The notes under the pieces were generated by a model. The model saw nothing but the letters and a program-made list of their open reading frames with translations, had not been told where the DNA came from and ran no database searches. From IMG/VR virus record IMGVR_UViG_3300044620_001313, positions 1 to 27,139 of that record: DNA of 27,139 bases. One strand, 5' to 3'. A program made the translations under genes and the position numbers. Each line of letters opens with the position of its first letter. Positions within the stretch are counted from its first letter, which is position 1. Positions 1-24,531 of this stretch are shown here, in pieces. This DNA is from a virus.

Positions 1-2993
1 TAATTCTTCCCTTTATATTCATACCATGTTCCTCCTTTAATTATCGTTTGACCTTGAGCAAGAAATATAGGTTCTGTCTCAATACTTAATTCGATTGGAG
101 TTGATATTTTTTCTGGATTACCTCGTCCAGGTATAGTCACTGTTTCAGATTGAGTAGTAGGAGCTGGCGGAGTAGGAGGAACAAAAGTAGGAACAGTAAT
201 ACCTGTTGTACTAGCACTTTCTAATTCTACTAAATATTCCTCTATTGCATTAGATTCTTCTGTAAGTTTTTCTGCTTTAGCAATTTCTGCTTGGAGATCT
301 CGTTCTACTTTTATTATAGGTTCTCCAAACCAATAGTCAGTCATAACTTCTAAACGAGATTTTAAATCGTCTATTTTCTTAGTTATTTTTCCAAGTTCTA
401 TAGCATTCTTTTCTAATTGTTTAGTATACCGCTGAATAAGACGTTTAATAATTAAACTGTTGTACCCTCTAATAGTATCATCTTTAAGTTCAGTTTCCTG
501 CACTTCTTTTAATCTCTGCTCTTTTATCTTTTTCTGTAACTTTTGTAATTCCTTAAAATAGTTTTCTGAGTTCTTTTTTAACTTGGATAATGTTTTAGCC
601 TGAGTGAGTTGTTTGTTAGCTTCTTCTAGTACTGCAACTTTATCTTCTAAATGAGATATTCTGCTATTTAGTCTTTTGCTGTAAGCAGATTCTTGAAGAG
701 TTTTACCCATAGTATCATAATAATCTTGAAGAGTTTTATCTGCATTTGCAGGTTTCTCTTTCCAAGCAGTATAACTTTCAGATTCTAATACTTCAGCACC
801 AAACTGTTCTACTTCTGAAGCTCTTTTTTCTTGAAGAGCTTTTAAAGAAGTTAAAGACCGTTGTAAAAAATCCATTCCAGATTCTCCTTCCATTACAAAC
901 AACCCTAAATCATTTAAAGCATTTTCTGCTTCTACTGCTCCGGCAAGAGTTCCTGTCTGTAATGATGCTAAGGCAGTATCTATAATTGCTTTAGTTTTAT
1001 TATAGTTTTCTACATGTGTCAGGTGTCTGCGGTATTTACGCATATAATCTCTTCGAGCTTTTTCTGTAAGTGCTAAATCGTTTGCAGTTTGATTAAACAC
1101 TTCATTCATAACATCTGTATCATTGCTAGAAAGTTCTTCTTGAGATCTTTTTAAAGATTGTTTTGCCTGGTAAAGATCGGCAGCAGTTTGAAAAATAAAA
1201 TCTGCTAAGTGCACATCTTCCATTTTTCCAAAGTCTTTATCTATACCATATTTATTGTATACAGCATCATGAAGTTTTTTTAATTGAGTTAAATCTTCTA
1301 AAGCTTCAGTAGCTTTTACTTTATAAGCATTATCTTGCTTATTCTTAGCTAAACCTAACTTCATGGCAGCAGTAATACCATTTTCATCTTCAACTTCGTT
1401 GTCTACATTTTTTAAATCTTCATAGGTAGTCTTTAGATTTTCTTCCATTCCAAAAAGTACACTATTGGTATTATGTACATCAAAGAGAGTTCTCCTAATT
1501 TCTTCCGCTTTTAAAACATCTCCAGAAGCAACAGCTTTTCTTAAATCTTCTTGAGTATTTAAAATGTGTGATACATCATCAACTATCTTATCTTTAATAC
1601 TTGAGAAATATTTTTCTTTAAACACCTTGCTTCTTTGTACAGAACTCATACGTCTTCCTTCATTGTAGTACTCTACATCAGCATCTTCAGGATTTTCTAC
1701 TGGATTTCCTTGAGCATCCACTAATTTTCCATCCACAGTTTTAGCTCCTTTGACTACTTTATGTAAAGGCAGATAACTTGCTACTGTGTTTTGTACTGGT
1801 CCGGCAATTGCACCTAATACAAAGTTTAAAGCTCCTTCAGCATTCATAGTGTGATCAAAATAGTCACTTAACAAAGATAATTGTTCCAAGAAGCCATGGA
1901 CTTCTCCTTTCTTTCCTTCTTGTATTCCAACCTGCTCAGCAAATAAATTGTTTAATTCTTCTACACCTTCTGCTCCTGCTTCTTTTGCAGCAATTCCTAC
2001 TCTCTTTAAAGCATCTTTTTGAGCTGCGAAAGGTTCAGCTCCAGCCCATCTATAAGTGGTAGGTTCAAACTCTTTAAGACGTTTTAAATAAGCTTCAGTA
2101 CTTTCCCCTGCCTCTTGTTTTAAAACTCTTTTAGCAGCTTTCATTACCTCATCAGAACCATGATTAAAAAACATTCCCATTCCTCCGGCCATGTTTAAGC
2201 CAGTGTTTAACATGGTATTCAATTGAACAGTTGTAGCAGCGCTTTGAGCTGCAATACTTTGAGCTTCTTGCTCAGATTTTCCAGCTGCTAATTGGGCTGT
2301 ATAGGTTTCATTGAAAACTCGTCTTCCAGACATTGCTCCTTCTGCAAAAGCTAAAGTACCGGCTGTTAAAGTTTTTTCTCCTAATTGAGCAAGTTTGGCT
2401 GCATTTGCCGGACTTGCTTTTAATAAAGCTAATCCAGCTTCCACTCCTTTGCCTATTTTTCCAAGTCTTCCTAAGGCTCCTAAACCTTTAGCAATTCCTG
2501 TTCCTCCTAAAGCAAACCCTGCAACAGAGGCAGTTAGTCCAGAAATATTTTGAGTCCACCAAGCAGCGTCTGTAAAATCTACTAAATCTTTAGAGGTTCT
2601 GTACATCGGAAAGTTTCTATCTAACCATGCGTTTGCTGCATCTGTTCCTTCAGTAAAAACATTTTGATAATCTCTGTCATCCCCCCATTCAAAAAGTAAG
2701 GATTGAAGACCTCCTGCCATATCCAATAGTTGAGTACCAATTTTTCCTATTGTTTGAGGAATCATGTTTCCCCATTTGTCCCAAGCACTTTGAGCTTCTC
2801 CTCTTTGAATATCAGGATCACCTTTATCTTCGAATAAACCGCCAGTTAAATACCCCGTATATTCTACGGGCTTGTACATAGATACTTGGCCTCCCATGTA
2901 GCTGGGAGAACCTGATAGCATCTCTGACTGCTTCTTAGTTAAATCGTCGTCAGATAATCCTTTGTCATAAATATCTGTTGGATCTATAGGCAT
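1..2993 (-). CDS. Very large capsid-cargo/ejection protein, C-terminus beyond the window
   Basis: An ATG at 2993 opens a frame that stays open to base 1, giving at least 997 codons. It starts 6 bases after the stop of the 755-aa cargo gene, in the same operon. Residues about 150-195 form a Gly/Ala-rich hydrophobic stretch (SVAGFALGGTGIAKGLGALG), with further apolar segments near 205-222 and 257-277. Roughly residues 500-900 are Lys/Glu/Leu-rich and look like long coiled coil. A Pro/Thr-rich linker (VPTFVPPTPPAPTT) follows, then the frame leaves the window. Known crassviruses carry several giant cargo proteins after the muzzle gene, with virion RNA polymerase genes nearby. The apolar segments suggest membrane insertion during genome delivery, which is inference. 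No polymerase motif is visible in the part present. The virion-protein call is firm; the exact role is unknown. Confidence 0.8.
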   Translation of the reverse strand, partial: MPIDPTDIYDKGLSDDDLTKKQSEMLSGSPSYMGGQVSMYKPVEYTGYLTGGLFEDKGDPDIQRGEAQSAWDKWGNMIPQTIGKIGTQLLDMAGGLQSLLFEWGDDRDYQNVFTEGTDAANAWLDRNFPMYRTSKDLVDFTDAAWWTQNISGLTASVAGFALGGTGIAKGLGALGRLGKIGKGVEAGLALLKASPANAAKLAQLGEKTLTAGTLAFAEGAMSGRRVFNETYTAQLAAGKSEQEAQSIAAQSAATTVQLNTMLNTGLNMAGGMGMFFNHGSDEVMKAAKRVLKQEAGESTEAYLKRLKEFEPTTYRWAGAEPFAAQKDALKRVGIAAKEAGAEGVEELNNLFAEQVGIQEGKKGEVHGFLEQLSLLSDYFDHTMNAEGALNFVLGAIAGPVQNTVASYLPLHKVVKGAKTVDGKLVDAQGNPVENPEDADVEYYNEGRRMSSVQRSKVFKEKYFSSIKDKIVDDVSHILNTQEDLRKAVASGDVLKAEEIRRTLFDVHNTNSVLFGMEENLKTTYEDLKNVDNEVEDENGITAAMKLGLAKNKQDNAYKVKATEALEDLTQLKKLHDAVYNKYGIDKDFGKMEDVHLADFIFQTAADLYQAKQSLKRSQEELSSNDTDVMNEVFNQTANDLALTEKARRDYMRKYRRHLTHVENYNKTKAIIDTALASLQTGTLAGAVEAENALNDLGLFVMEGESGMDFLQRSLTSLKALQEKRASEVEQFGAEVLESESYTAWKEKPANADKTLQDYYDTMGKTLQESAYSKRLNSRISHLEDKVAVLEEANKQLTQAKTLSKLKKNSENYFKELQKLQKKIKEQRLKEVQETELKDDTIRGYNSLIIKRLIQRYTKQLEKNAIELGKITKKIDDLKSRLEVMTDYWFGEPIIKVERDLQAEIAKAEKLTEESNAIEEYLVELESASTTGITVPTFVPPTPPAPTTQSETVTIPGRGNPEKISTPIELSIETEPIFLAQGQTIIKGGTWYEYKGKN

Positions 2994-20940: not shown

Positions 20941-21387
20941 TTATTTTTCATCTCGTATCCTTCCTAATTCAAATCCTAAGTGAAATCTTGCTTCTCCTAA
21001 ATGCTGGTAAATACTTATTAAGCATGTGATTGCATCAATAGCAGAAGTACTTTCTCCTTCCGAAAGAGTATTAAAAGTACTTAATAGACTATTTAGCTCT
21101 TGTCGTAACCAATCAATTCTTTCAACTTGATTAAGGTTTGTGATATTTAAATAGGTTGCTGAAACATCCACTATAGGTTCTATATCCTCTTTGGAATGCC
21201 TGTTACCATCTTTTTTGTACGGATTTTCTTTTCCTACAATTCCAGCTAATTTTCCCATCCAAGCTCTGGCCAAACGAAGGGATTTTAAAAAGTCTGCAAC
21301 GTGGGTTGAAGAAGGTACATGATTTTCTGTGGTAGAGTTAAGTGCATGGCACTTTTGTCTCATTTCTTTTAGAACTTGTAGAACCAT
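20941..21387 (-). CDS. Small helical protein, possible Acb2/Tad1-hairpin relative
   Basis: A 148-residue, mostly helical protein. Residues 1-60 form helices rich in basic residues (LKSLRLARAWMGKLAGIVGK). After a linker, VERIDWLRQELNSLLSTFNT and AITCLISIYQHLGEARFHLG form two helices that could pair as a hairpin, ending ELGRIRDEK. The last helix loosely recalls the LTKLEEAVMWANAAIA helix of Acb2-type cyclic-nucleotide sponges, but the match is weak. It overlaps the 292-aa gene by one base (TAATG) and sits among virion genes, so a capsid or neck assembly factor is equally plausible. No catalytic residues stand out. Confidence 0.6.
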   Translation of the reverse strand: MVLQVLKEMRQKCHALNSTTENHVPSSTHVADFLKSLRLARAWMGKLAGIVGKENPYKKDGNRHSKEDIEPIVDVSATYLNITNLNQVERIDWLRQELNSLLSTFNTLSEGESTSAIDAITCLISIYQHLGEARFHLGFELGRIRDEK

Positions 21388-22265
21388 TATTTTACAGTTT
21401 TATCTTGATACCTGGCTTTTAACAATCCTATTTTTTCTGAATTGCTGGAATCATCTTTTAAGAATGTCACCATATCTTCTTTAGATTCAGCTATTTTAGT
21501 GTCATCTTCTACATCATAAAAGCGTCCACCAACTTGTTTAATTACTTGAGCATCTAAAAGAGATTGAATCCAATAGTTTGCTTCAAAATCTTTATGAAGT
21601 ACTACATCTACAAACTTCTGTGGATTGCTTTCAGCTATTTTTCGAAGTTCTGTTTCAGCGGGATCTTCTAAAGAACTTAAACTTTTACCCAACAATAAGA
21701 GAGCTTGTTGTACTTTATTAGCATCATCTTTTACTTCAAGATAAGCTTGAATAGCATCATCTTTGATAGCAGCTTGGGCTTTCTTACGTTTGTTCGTTAA
21801 AGCTTTATCTTGAATATAAAACCAAATGTTATTCTGTCCTTCGGCTTCTTCCGGGCTTTTAGATACCCTGGGATGCTTCAATGCATGTCGGTAACGAATG
21901 TAATCAATTGTTTTAATTGGAAGATTTGAAGCAGAGATAGGAGCATTGTTGTCCTCACTTAATCCTATCTCCAATGTTAATCCTGTATCAAAAGGAATTT
22001 TAGTATCCATGTTGATAAAGAAGGTTCGTACTTCTTTTTTAAATTCAATTTCTTTTGGATCAATGTAGAGAATTTCTGGAAGTAATAGTTTTTCTTCTTC
22101 TGCAGTCAATCCACTTGCAATTTTAGTTGAATTGACTGATTCGTAATAAGAACCTATGGATTGATTTCCGGCAGCAAAAAAAGGTCTTACATCCTTTCCT
22201 TGAGCTGCTGCAAGAAAAGATGTGTTTCGGTAGATAACAATTCTGTGGCTGTTGGGATGAGTCAT
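21387..22265 (-). CDS. Conserved structural protein after the capsid gene (auxiliary capsid candidate)
   Basis: A 292-residue protein. It opens with RIVIYRNTSFLAAAQGKDV followed by RPFFAAGNQSIGSYYES, a distinctive N-terminal block. A middle beta region (FFINMDTKIPFDTGLTLEIG) is followed by a Lys/Glu/Asp-rich helical half (NKRKKAQAAIKDDAIQAYLE) and a globular C-terminus ending KARYQDKTVK. It is the first gene after a good Bacteroidota promoter, with an AGGAG site 13 bases before the ATG. In crassviruses the genes just after the major capsid protein include capsid-associated proteins, and the auxiliary capsid protein is the best positional match. No enzyme motif is visible. Confidence 0.55.
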   Translation of the reverse strand: MTHPNSHRIVIYRNTSFLAAAQGKDVRPFFAAGNQSIGSYYESVNSTKIASGLTAEEEKLLLPEILYIDPKEIEFKKEVRTFFINMDTKIPFDTGLTLEIGLSEDNNAPISASNLPIKTIDYIRYRHALKHPRVSKSPEEAEGQNNIWFYIQDKALTNKRKKAQAAIKDDAIQAYLEVKDDANKVQQALLLLGKSLSSLEDPAETELRKIAESNPQKFVDVVLHKDFEANYWIQSLLDAQVIKQVGGRFYDVEDDTKIAESKEDMVTFLKDDSSNSEKIGLLKARYQDKTVK

Positions 22266-22285: not shown

Positions 22286-22317
22286 CAAATGTAAATACAA
22301 ATTATTCTAAAAACAAA
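22286..22317 (-). promoter_or_regulatory. Bacteroidota-type promoter upstream of the 292-aa gene
   Basis: On the minus strand a TTTG (22317-22314) lies 20 bases before TACATTTG (22293-22286), matching the Bacteroidota consensus TTTG-N19-21-TAnnTTTG. The start codon at 22265 leaves a leader of about 15-20 bases that contains AGGAG. The -33 box overlaps the U-tract of the upstream terminator, so one block ends where the next begins. Confidence 0.6.
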
Positions 22318-22341
22318 ATCCTCCTTTTAAGGGGAGGATTT
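22310..22341 (-). terminator. Rho-independent terminator after the secreted-protein gene
   Basis: On the minus strand, AAATCCTCC (22341-22333) pairs with GGAGGATTT (22324-22316) across an 8-base loop, then TGTTTTTAG gives a U-rich tail. The stem starts about 21 bases after the stop codon at 22363. It closes the single-gene unit of the signal-peptide protein. Confidence 0.85.
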
Positions 22342-22362: not shown

Positions 22363-22956
22363 TTAATAGACTTTCCTGGTAAAAAATCGCCATCGAACAC
22401 TGCTTACTTTAGCATTTGTATTAGCAGATCCTTGGTAAGAGGTACTAAATTTATAGTAATTAAATCCAGGATTGTACAAAGTAAGGATGTACGATACAGC
22501 TGTTCCTGCAGTTAAACCACTGCCTACTGCAATTGTATCGGCTGCTGTCCAAACTGATCCTGCAGAACTATTGACTCCTAAAGCTGGCTGACTTATAACT
22601 GGATAAGTTCCGGAATAAGTGTAAGAAGGAGATTTAGATACATGCGCATAAGAAGGAGCAAATATCTTATTTAAATCTACCCTGTACCAGTTACTGTTAT
22701 CATTGGATGCCCACAGAACTAACCCTAAAGATTGAGGTGTTTCATGTTTAGTAGCGACTACTATTTGAAACTGTACAATAATATTGTTAGCTGTAGTACA
22801 TACTTTAGATTCACCAAAAGCTACACCTCCTGAAGTGGTACCGGTAAAAGATAAGGTATCCATGTTCCATTGTGACCAGGTGGATTTAGTAGCTACATTC
22901 TGTGCCATGGCAGAGCAGCCGAAAAGAATTAAAGTTAAAATTAAAAGGTTTTTCAC
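22363..22956 (-). CDS. Protein with Bacteroidota signal peptide, GTG start
   Basis: A 197-residue protein translated from GTG at 22956; no ATG lies between it and the in-frame TAA upstream. The N-terminus KNLLILTLILFGCSAMAQ is a textbook signal peptide, cut by signal peptidase I after AMA (residue 18). LFGC at 11-14 could alternatively act as a lipobox. The mature part is beta-rich, with LGLVLWASNDNSNWYRVDL and YNPGFNYYKFSTSYQGSA, resembling small beta-sandwich proteins of Bacteroidota phages. It stands alone between two terminators, right after the capsid gene. Possible roles are altering the host surface during infection (for example exclusion of other phages) or a capsid decoration that keeps an odd leader. 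Secretion is strongly suggested; function is unknown. Confidence 0.75.
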   Translation of the reverse strand: MKNLLILTLILFGCSAMAQNVATKSTWSQWNMDTLSFTGTTSGGVAFGESKVCTTANNIIVQFQIVVATKHETPQSLGLVLWASNDNSNWYRVDLNKIFAPSYAHVSKSPSYTYSGTYPVISQPALGVNSSAGSVWTAADTIAVGSGLTAGTAVSYILTLYNPGFNYYKFSTSYQGSANTNAKVSSVRWRFFTRKVY

Positions 22957-22974: not shown

Positions 22975-23008
22975 TTAAAAATTAAGGGGAGGGTTACTCC
23001 CCTTTTAT
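22975..23008 (-). terminator. Rho-independent terminator after the major capsid gene
   Basis: On the minus strand AAGGGGAG (23004-22997) pairs with CTCCCCTT (22991-22984) around a 5-base loop, followed by AATTTTTAATC. It starts about 10 bases after the capsid stop at 23014. It would cap the portal-scaffold-capsid transcript, with read-through feeding the signal-peptide gene. Confidence 0.8.
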
Positions 23009-23013
23009 TTAGA

Positions 23014-24531
23014 TTAGAGTCCAGCTTCACATTGTAAATCAAAGCAACGGTTTGCACGTAAGATTTGAATACCGGCTGACTTCATACGAGTGTATGAACT
23101 TTCATCAACATCAGTAGCCAAAAACTTGCTTGCTTGCATTCCAGAATTACCGGCTAAGATATCCAAAGATTTAGGCATTGGAGTAAGACCAGGAATAACA
23201 CCATCAATGTAAGAACGTCCTTTTTGAGCTACGTGCATAATGTTTGGTTGTCCATCAACATCAGAATCATCCAAGAATACCATACGGTAAGATTCCAAAG
23301 GTAATCCATCAGGGTGTTTCAAACCTCCCATAGCTACTCGACCAATGTCGAAAACAGGGTTCTTTTTCACTTTGATTGTGTATCCATCAATGTGATAGAA
23401 TGTATCAAAGTAACCTCCTAAAGCCAAGTTGTAGCCTGTACCAGTTACAAATTTGGAAGCAATATCTCCGGCACCTAATGGGCCTAAGATTTGTGCACCG
23501 GCATCAACCATAGCAGCATGGAATTCCCTCATACCTCCTGTACCTGTCATCAAAGTGATAGACATGTTACCAGAATCAGATTGTCCAAACAATGCATCTC
23601 CTACTTTGTTTACCAAAGTTTTATAGGTCAACTTAGAGTAAGTGGATTTGTTACCGATTTGAGATAAAATTCCTGCTCCTAATGGAATTGTTTTTCCAGA
23701 ATACAAATCTTTCAAAGGAATAGTTCCATCAGTAAGACGGTTGTACTCGGAATACCAGTAGAAGTGTTCACAATCATTTACCCAGTTTTTCTCAAACTGC
23801 CACATGAACCAATCCATCCAAACAGAAGTTTCAACTCCTGTGTTAGGATTTTTCATAGTAATCTTCATTACCTTGTTAGCAGCATTACCAGCCCAACTCA
23901 TACCAGTCCTCATAAAGGACATTTGGTTTTTGTACAAGCCTGGCATAACCATGTTGGATTCAGTTGTACGAGATTGACTTTCAGGTACAGCAGCAAACAA
24001 CTTAGTCCAGTTAGTTTCTGTTTGAGTTTCAAGAATTGGACAGAAGTCCTGAGCATTACTTGCAGCAAGTTGTACTTTGTACCGGTAAGTGCCGTCTGGT
24101 TGTAATTCTGGAGCTTCTAATACGTAAGCTTGTGTTCCACGAGAAGATTGGATAATGTAAAACCGCTTGATCCAATTATCATAAAAGAATAAATAGAAAG
24201 GAGCATGGCCAATACCTGGTTTATCTCCTGTACCATAAATACTCTTTGCAATTGGAGAGGTTTTATCATCTCTTCCCATAACCGGGTAAGTAAACTGCAC
24301 ATCGTCAATTTCTTTTGAAGTGTTGTTTACATTGTAACCTACACCCCCAACAGTCATTCCAGAAATTGGAAAAGATCTGTTGTAGTCTCCTAAGATGTAA
24401 GTTAGTTTACTGGTTAAAACGGAAGGACCTCCTTGACGCTGGTTATAAAAGTTTTCTTCGTCTAATCGACTTTCTGTGTCGAACATTTGTTCCTGAACCT
24501 GGAACTGTAGTTTTGGATATGGATTAGTCAT
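23014..24531 (-). CDS. Major capsid protein (crassvirus type, HK97 fold)
   Basis: A 505-residue protein, the usual length for crassvirus major capsid proteins. It starts TNPYPKLQFQVQEQMFDTES, then a globular body with SFPISGMTVGGVGYNVN, WVNDCEHFYWYSEYNRLTDG and GTGGMREFHAAMVDAGAQIL. The end, VDESSYTRMKSAGIQILRAN and FDLQCEAGL, matches the conserved C-terminus I recall for this family. It would form the icosahedral shell. The gene follows the scaffold candidate by 10 bases and ends at a strong terminator. The leader is A-rich with no Shine-Dalgarno site, which suits the highly translated genes of Bacteroidota. No N-terminal scaffold region is fused, consistent with a separate scaffold gene upstream. 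Confidence 0.85.
   Translation of the reverse strand: MTNPYPKLQFQVQEQMFDTESRLDEENFYNQRQGGPSVLTSKLTYILGDYNRSFPISGMTVGGVGYNVNNTSKEIDDVQFTYPVMGRDDKTSPIAKSIYGTGDKPGIGHAPFYLFFYDNWIKRFYIIQSSRGTQAYVLEAPELQPDGTYRYKVQLAASNAQDFCPILETQTETNWTKLFAAVPESQSRTTESNMVMPGLYKNQMSFMRTGMSWAGNAANKVMKITMKNPNTGVETSVWMDWFMWQFEKNWVNDCEHFYWYSEYNRLTDGTIPLKDLYSGKTIPLGAGILSQIGNKSTYSKLTYKTLVNKVGDALFGQSDSGNMSITLMTGTGGMREFHAAMVDAGAQILGPLGAGDIASKFVTGTGYNLALGGYFDTFYHIDGYTIKVKKNPVFDIGRVAMGGLKHPDGLPLESYRMVFLDDSDVDGQPNIMHVAQKGRSYIDGVIPGLTPMPKSLDILAGNSGMQASKFLATDVDESSYTRMKSAGIQILRANRCFDLQCEAGL

Follow-up and report, generated by a model that had tools for sequence, protein, structure and literature searches.

A putative Sec-exported protein encoded directly behind the major capsid gene in one clade of crAss-like phages

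Llp of phage T5, a small exported protein, acts on FhuA from the periplasm and averts loss to the fragments of lysed cells, and exclusion proteins in general are described as early products (PMC9586334). Llp and Cor of the T1-like phages are both lipoproteins made early, and llp lies beside the receptor-binding gene. In Bacteroidetes, the substrates of signal peptidase I have as their hallmark a Gln at position +1, known as the Q-rule (PMC5837995), and phage-encoded genes with Q-rule signal peptides, to which no function is assigned, have been described in the phages of Porphyromonas gingivalis (PMC10367356). Bacteroidetes are also given as the hosts of Crassvirales (PMC10136315), and Crassvirales are the most abundant human gut viruses (PMC10172136).

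The gene studied here, which we name SEC, resembles the P. gingivalis genes in being phage encoded, in having a predicted signal peptidase I site before Gln, and in its Bacteroidota host; those five genes belong to integrating phages (proposed Nixviridae), whereas SEC stands behind a crAss-like capsid gene. With Llp and Cor it would share the condition of a small exported phage protein, as well as the envelope site and the block of adsorption that we propose for it. It differs from them in its larger size, its predicted jelly-roll fold, its place beside the capsid gene, and the lack of a lipobox common to its homologues. The cargo of type IX secretion likewise consists of exported Bacteroidota proteins with a Q-rule signal; for a C-terminal sorting domain in SEC, Pfam and NCBIfam gave no family match at the E-values used, at which divergent domains could be missed. 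Q-rule-like signals can also be noticed in the neighbouring gp001 and gp002 of Cellulophaga phage phi14:2 (L135:9-266 and 283-1278; gp002 is annotated as an OmpA-domain protein), and a short protein of genome G008 (L125:5000-5257) resembles this pair.

SEC was found in a stretch of viral DNA of 27,139 nucleotides (IMG/VR record IMGVR_UViG_3300044620_001313), hereafter the window. It is an open reading frame of 197 codons with a GTG start, on the minus strand at 22363-22956, and its start lies 57 nt beyond the stop codon of the preceding gene, that of the major capsid protein (23014-24531, minus strand), which matches PF23898 (Crass_capsid, E 1.7e-55) and whose profile matches gp32 of crAss001 at 1.1e-19. 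The gene downstream of SEC (21387-22265, minus strand) is a homologue of crAss001 gp33, since a profile of this gene type built from ten relatives matched gp33 at 4.4e-11 and none of the other nine crAss001 proteins tested significantly. The earlier note on this DNA had described a GTG-started gene with a signal peptide directly after the major capsid gene, and this description holds, given that the frame is present, the gap measures 57 nt, and the predicted signal, VKNLLILTLILFGCSAMA, is followed by QN. The gp32-gp33 junction of crAss001 has the same flanking genes with no gene between them, and cr110_1, unlike the SEC locus, has no gene between the capsid gene and the next one either. The window is a linear fragment, off whose left end runs an open frame of 997 aa (3-2993, minus strand).

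A search with the capsid protein retrieved relatives at 55-100% identity, and alignment searches with the capsid protein and with the gp33 homologue extended these to about 60 distinct capsid-gp33 junctions, most of which are roughly 50-180 bp long and geneless. SEC-like genes occupy the junction in four lineages, namely, the window (with a near copy, L001), L004/L005/L006 (nearly the same phage), L007/L008, and L013. In about 55 of the 60 relatives' junctions there is no such gene, the slot being empty or taken by an unrelated one, in agreement with the earlier remark that a Sec-exported product rarely lies beside a phage capsid gene. The proteins of the four lineages are 20-35% identical in BLASTP, with the window-L008 pair aligning over the N-terminal half only. 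By these alignments, the homology of the SEC proteins of the window, L013, and L006 is beyond doubt (E 3e-19 for window-L013 and 1e-10 for window-L006); L008 gives weaker values (5e-4 to 5e-3) but agrees with the others in the position of its gene, in the signal, and in the motif at the C terminus. A conserved position after the capsid gene, which had been proposed as a check, is thus seen in L006, L008, and L013, and because these homologues keep the position, the signal, and both of the flanking hairpins, the arrangement is more than chance.

In a tree built from 64 capsid proteins, the SEC carriers group as one clade (bootstrap 94, SH-aLRT 91), and the presence of SEC needs one change, compared to 5.8 with shuffled labels, so that the simplest account would be a single gain on this clade. 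No additional carrier emerged from the capsid and gp33-homologue searches over the about 60 distinct junctions, and no further copies of the family were found elsewhere in the records of 23 relatives, many of which are fragments. Searches of viral contigs that used SEC, two of its homologues, or an alignment of the family as queries gave no members outside the four lineages, and those of genome contigs with a three-member alignment and with the L006 protein returned candidates only and no relatives; both collections were searched from short seed patterns, by which more distant members can be missed. All four family members gave no tblastn match in 50,697 phage records. Pfam, PHROGs, NCBIfam, and PADLOC searches with SEC gave no meaningful match, the weak hits to CBM65 (E 0.56), to a PHROG (E 0.013-0.2), and in NCBIfam (E 0.03) being disregarded.

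Other genes are found at the capsid-gp33 junction in L055, L074, L075, L076, L079, L081, L083, and L085; that of L075 is HNH-endonuclease-like, and the others are small and have no assigned function. The junction seems to accept insertions repeatedly. A single gain in one clade, at a site that takes other genes as well, would suit exported cargo, that is, a moron-like accessory gene that alters the host surface or surroundings (adhesion, aggregation, matrix binding) and has no part in exclusion. The Q-rule exported proteins known in P. gingivalis phages (PMC10367356), which look to be present in phi14:2 as gp001 and gp002, point the same way. We consider this a possible but rather unlikely role, since, in a phage that is presumably lytic, a gene expressed late would act on a cell soon to die, whose way of life could hardly still be altered, and SEC has no match to known adhesins in the family libraries. 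On the other side of the gp33 homologue, metallophosphatase-like and GNAT-like acetyltransferase genes are present in L006 (8247-9634), L013 (8246-9648), and L005 (6102-7489); between L006 and L013 this pair has 97% DNA identity, compared to 69% for the gp33 homologue just upstream, and it looks like a recently exchanged cassette.

In all four lineages, the N terminus of SEC consists of M-K followed by K or N, a hydrophobic stretch, a small residue-x-Ala, and then Gln; the traits of a Sec/signal peptidase I substrate of the Q-rule type (positive n-region, hydrophobic h-region, small residues at -3 and -1, Gln at +1) are therefore kept in every lineage. The predicted cleavage sites are AMA/QN, SQA/QV, SQA/QI, and TSA/QE, the slash marking the cut. 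In the window, the signal peptide, MKNLLILTLILFGCSAMA, spans codons 1-19 (22900-22956, minus strand), with Q at +1, its n-, h-, and c-regions having been assigned by eye and by a heuristic. When the combination of signal and Gln was sought with a home-made rule, different from SignalP, five of 839 distinct open reading frames of at least 100 aa near the relatives' capsid genes passed it, four of them being SEC genes and the fifth a spurious antisense frame. A signal and an x-Ala site before Gln retained in 4/4 lineages at 20-35% identity speak for the earlier claim of export, and we hold it very probable that SEC leaves the cytoplasm.

The window gene begins with GTG and has an ATG at the end of its signal, as would be expected if the signal were accidental and translation truly started at this internal codon (MAQNVATK...), giving a cytoplasmic product. 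Such a start is highly improbable: the homologues begin with ATG (MKK...) and have the signal complete, the alignment of SEC is continuous from residues 1-2, and L006 and L013 differ less in the signal than in any other part of this gene. A lipoprotein of the Llp/Cor type was also considered and rejected, as the LFGC of the window corresponds to LTGF in L006 and L013, and the IGFC of L008 is not a lipobox. Because LFGC is not a lipobox common to the homologues, our interpretation is that SEC is exported in soluble form.

Between the capsid gene and SEC lies a hairpin (22984-23004, minus strand) of -13.2 kcal/mol (z -2.85), which none of 200 shuffles equals in folding and which is followed by a short tail, AATTTTTAAT. 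Counterparts that differ in sequence occur in L006 (z -4.38), L013 (z -4.68), and L008 (z -2.86), and in three of the four SEC genomes the hairpin is followed by a short U-run. The natural reading is a weak terminator or attenuator that would lower SEC relative to the capsid protein; a role in message stability would look alike. Behind SEC, a strong intrinsic terminator (stem 22316-22341, minus strand, tail TGTTTTTAGA) has counterparts in the other SEC genomes. The earlier view of a terminator on each side is therefore upheld for the distal one, whereas the front hairpin is real but short-tailed, and resembles a weak terminator or attenuator.

In most of the displayed genomes without SEC, the terminator comes directly after the capsid gene; in the SEC genomes, SEC is placed upstream of the terminator that ends the capsid unit, which would put it in the capsid transcript. 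The next operon has a Bacteroidota-type promoter, TTTG-N20-TACATTTG (22286-22317, minus strand), 28 nt ahead of the start of the gp33 homologue. The element TAnnTTTG is present in 26 of the 60 gaps of the relatives, compared to an expectation of 4.5, and usually stands 24-31 nt ahead of the gene; by this motif the gp33 operon has its own promoter in the displayed genomes without SEC. No host-type promoter was found in the 57-nt gap between the capsid gene and SEC in the window, and the idea that SEC has one of its own there was dropped; because of this gap, SEC probably belongs to the capsid transcript, though it stands alone between hairpins. The front hairpin and the promoterless gap likewise agree with the earlier proposal that SEC depends on read-through of the capsid terminator. 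SEC would then be expressed late, the timing being taken from position only, and at a reduced level.

An exported and presumably late product could also be a lysis accessory in the periplasm or at the outer membrane. This is doubtful, less probable than cargo, in that SEC has no second membrane segment, relatives lyse without it, and the SEC-bearing genome G001 has a separate gene resembling a one-piece spanin. The product of the latter (P0010, L122:2184-2714), 176 aa long, starts like a lipoprotein and has a membrane helix at its C terminus; it is a candidate one-piece spanin.

The mature region (22363-22899, minus strand), which has the C-terminal motif FNYYK...RFFTRKVY, is predicted from alignments and AlphaFold2 to form a jelly-roll beta-sandwich. 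The prediction for the window protein from four sequences reached a pLDDT of 55, too poor to be used alone; the AlphaFold2 model of the shorter L008 homologue, without its signal, has a pLDDT of 68, a pTM of 0.65, and eight strands in a jelly-roll-like sandwich. We thus assign the jelly-roll with modest confidence. An outer-membrane barrel was set aside, the better model being a sandwich, and a PDB sequence search with SEC gave no match. The structural neighbours of the model (Z 8-9.6) are many and unrelated, including a birnavirus VP2 domain, Pgp3, BC2L-C lectin, C1q/TNF heads, and phage tail domains, with BC2L-C lectin, PLTL lectin, and the CBD of a cyanophage short tail fibre (Z 8-9) as surface- or sugar-binding representatives; the cement protein of phage KHP40 is also among them (E 4e-3). 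These neighbours would indicate a common fold rather than a function.

The KHP40 protein and the fold itself, together with the place directly behind the capsid gene in the same transcript, would be compatible with a minor protein of the virion surface, a decoration of the head or a jelly-roll of the fibre type, either left uncleaved in the cytoplasm or joined from the periplasm at lysis. Furthermore, in genome G005 (relative L017) a Q-rule signal also precedes a large protein that resembles a tail fibre, P0009 (L132:11541-14081, 846 aa, signal ending in VNA before Q, no Pfam match); this would be a second instance, in a related phage, of a fibre-like protein that is exported. We judge a virion role unlikely, somewhat less so than lysis, for the kept signal and signal peptidase site direct SEC away from the compartment of head assembly, the auxiliary and head fibre proteins of crAss001 are encoded elsewhere (PMC10172136), and most relatives manage without SEC. 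A SEC profile compared with ten crAss001 proteins of the gp31-gp43 block (gp31-gp36 included; the head fibres gp21 and gp29 lie outside this set) gave no significant match, the best being gp36 (E 0.17).

Between L006 and L013, the SEC signal is 90% identical in both DNA and protein, whereas the mature part retains 58% identity in DNA (111 gap columns) and 33% in protein. For the same pair, protein identity is 92% for the capsid protein and 70% for the gp33 homologue, and the intergenic stretch with the terminator behind SEC has 88% DNA identity. The pN is 0.48 for mature SEC and 0.06 for the capsid protein, and the pS is 0.60 for mature SEC, 0.50 for the capsid gene, and 0.74 for the gp33 homologue, with alignment errors inflating the SEC values. 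Mature SEC thus appears to change fast, far faster than the capsid protein, while its export signal is held, weak constraint being the alternative; a rapidly changing protein with a retained signal would suit contact with a host surface that itself varies. A recombination event that replaced the mature part by that of a remote homologue seems less likely, because pS in the mature part is no higher than in the gp33 homologue.

SEC most likely acts on the outer side of the host cell, not within the capsid. As to its role, for which the earlier note had raised superinfection exclusion and an exported adhesin carried as cargo, we tentatively rank first, by inference, that of a late envelope protein that blocks the adsorption of sister phages, a reading that we favour above the others without holding it probable. 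SEC would be transcribed late with the capsid gene, the hairpin stopping part of the polymerases and so reducing its amount; as a substrate of signal peptidase I, it would pass out through the host Sec system, be cut before Gln, and fold as a small jelly-roll outside the cytoplasm. There, it may attach to some variable feature of the host surface, either a receptor protein or a glycan, and block it, so that sister phages and fresh progeny would not be wasted on infected cells and debris. The late timing, reduced level, envelope location, receptor binding, and blocking are what we infer, with T5 Llp as the precedent. The signal with its x-Ala site before Gln in 4/4 lineages, the fast-changing mature part, and the surface- and sugar-binding neighbours of the fold count for exclusion. 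Against it, SEC lies in a structural-gene transcript, whereas exclusion proteins are made early, and Llp is a lipoprotein, whereas SEC has no lipobox common to the lineages. Moreover, no receptor-binding gene adjoining SEC was identified, most relatives live without SEC, the neighbours of the fold are unrelated, and fast change can mean weak constraint.

Secreted Q-rule proteins of phages are a kind already known (PMC10367356); what is new, as far as our searches go, is the SEC family, its location within the capsid transcript, and the hairpin that resembles an attenuator. No published description of the family was found in the open-access literature. It is possible to speculate, at long odds, that in some environmental crAss-like phages fast-changing jelly-roll or fibre-like proteins are regularly made late and exported through the host Sec system, to serve as soluble shields against self-adsorption or as parts of the virion surface loaded outside the cytoplasm at lysis, SEC and P0009 being two examples. 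To our knowledge, the effects of Crassvirales on the surface of the infected cell are hardly known. SEC is a tangible candidate for what such a phage may place at the surface of its Bacteroidota host, being small, predicted to be exported, probably tied to the capsid transcript, clade-wide, and apparently fast-changing, and its locus suggests that a cargo gene can sit upstream of the terminator of an operon and leave the neighbouring promoter undisturbed.
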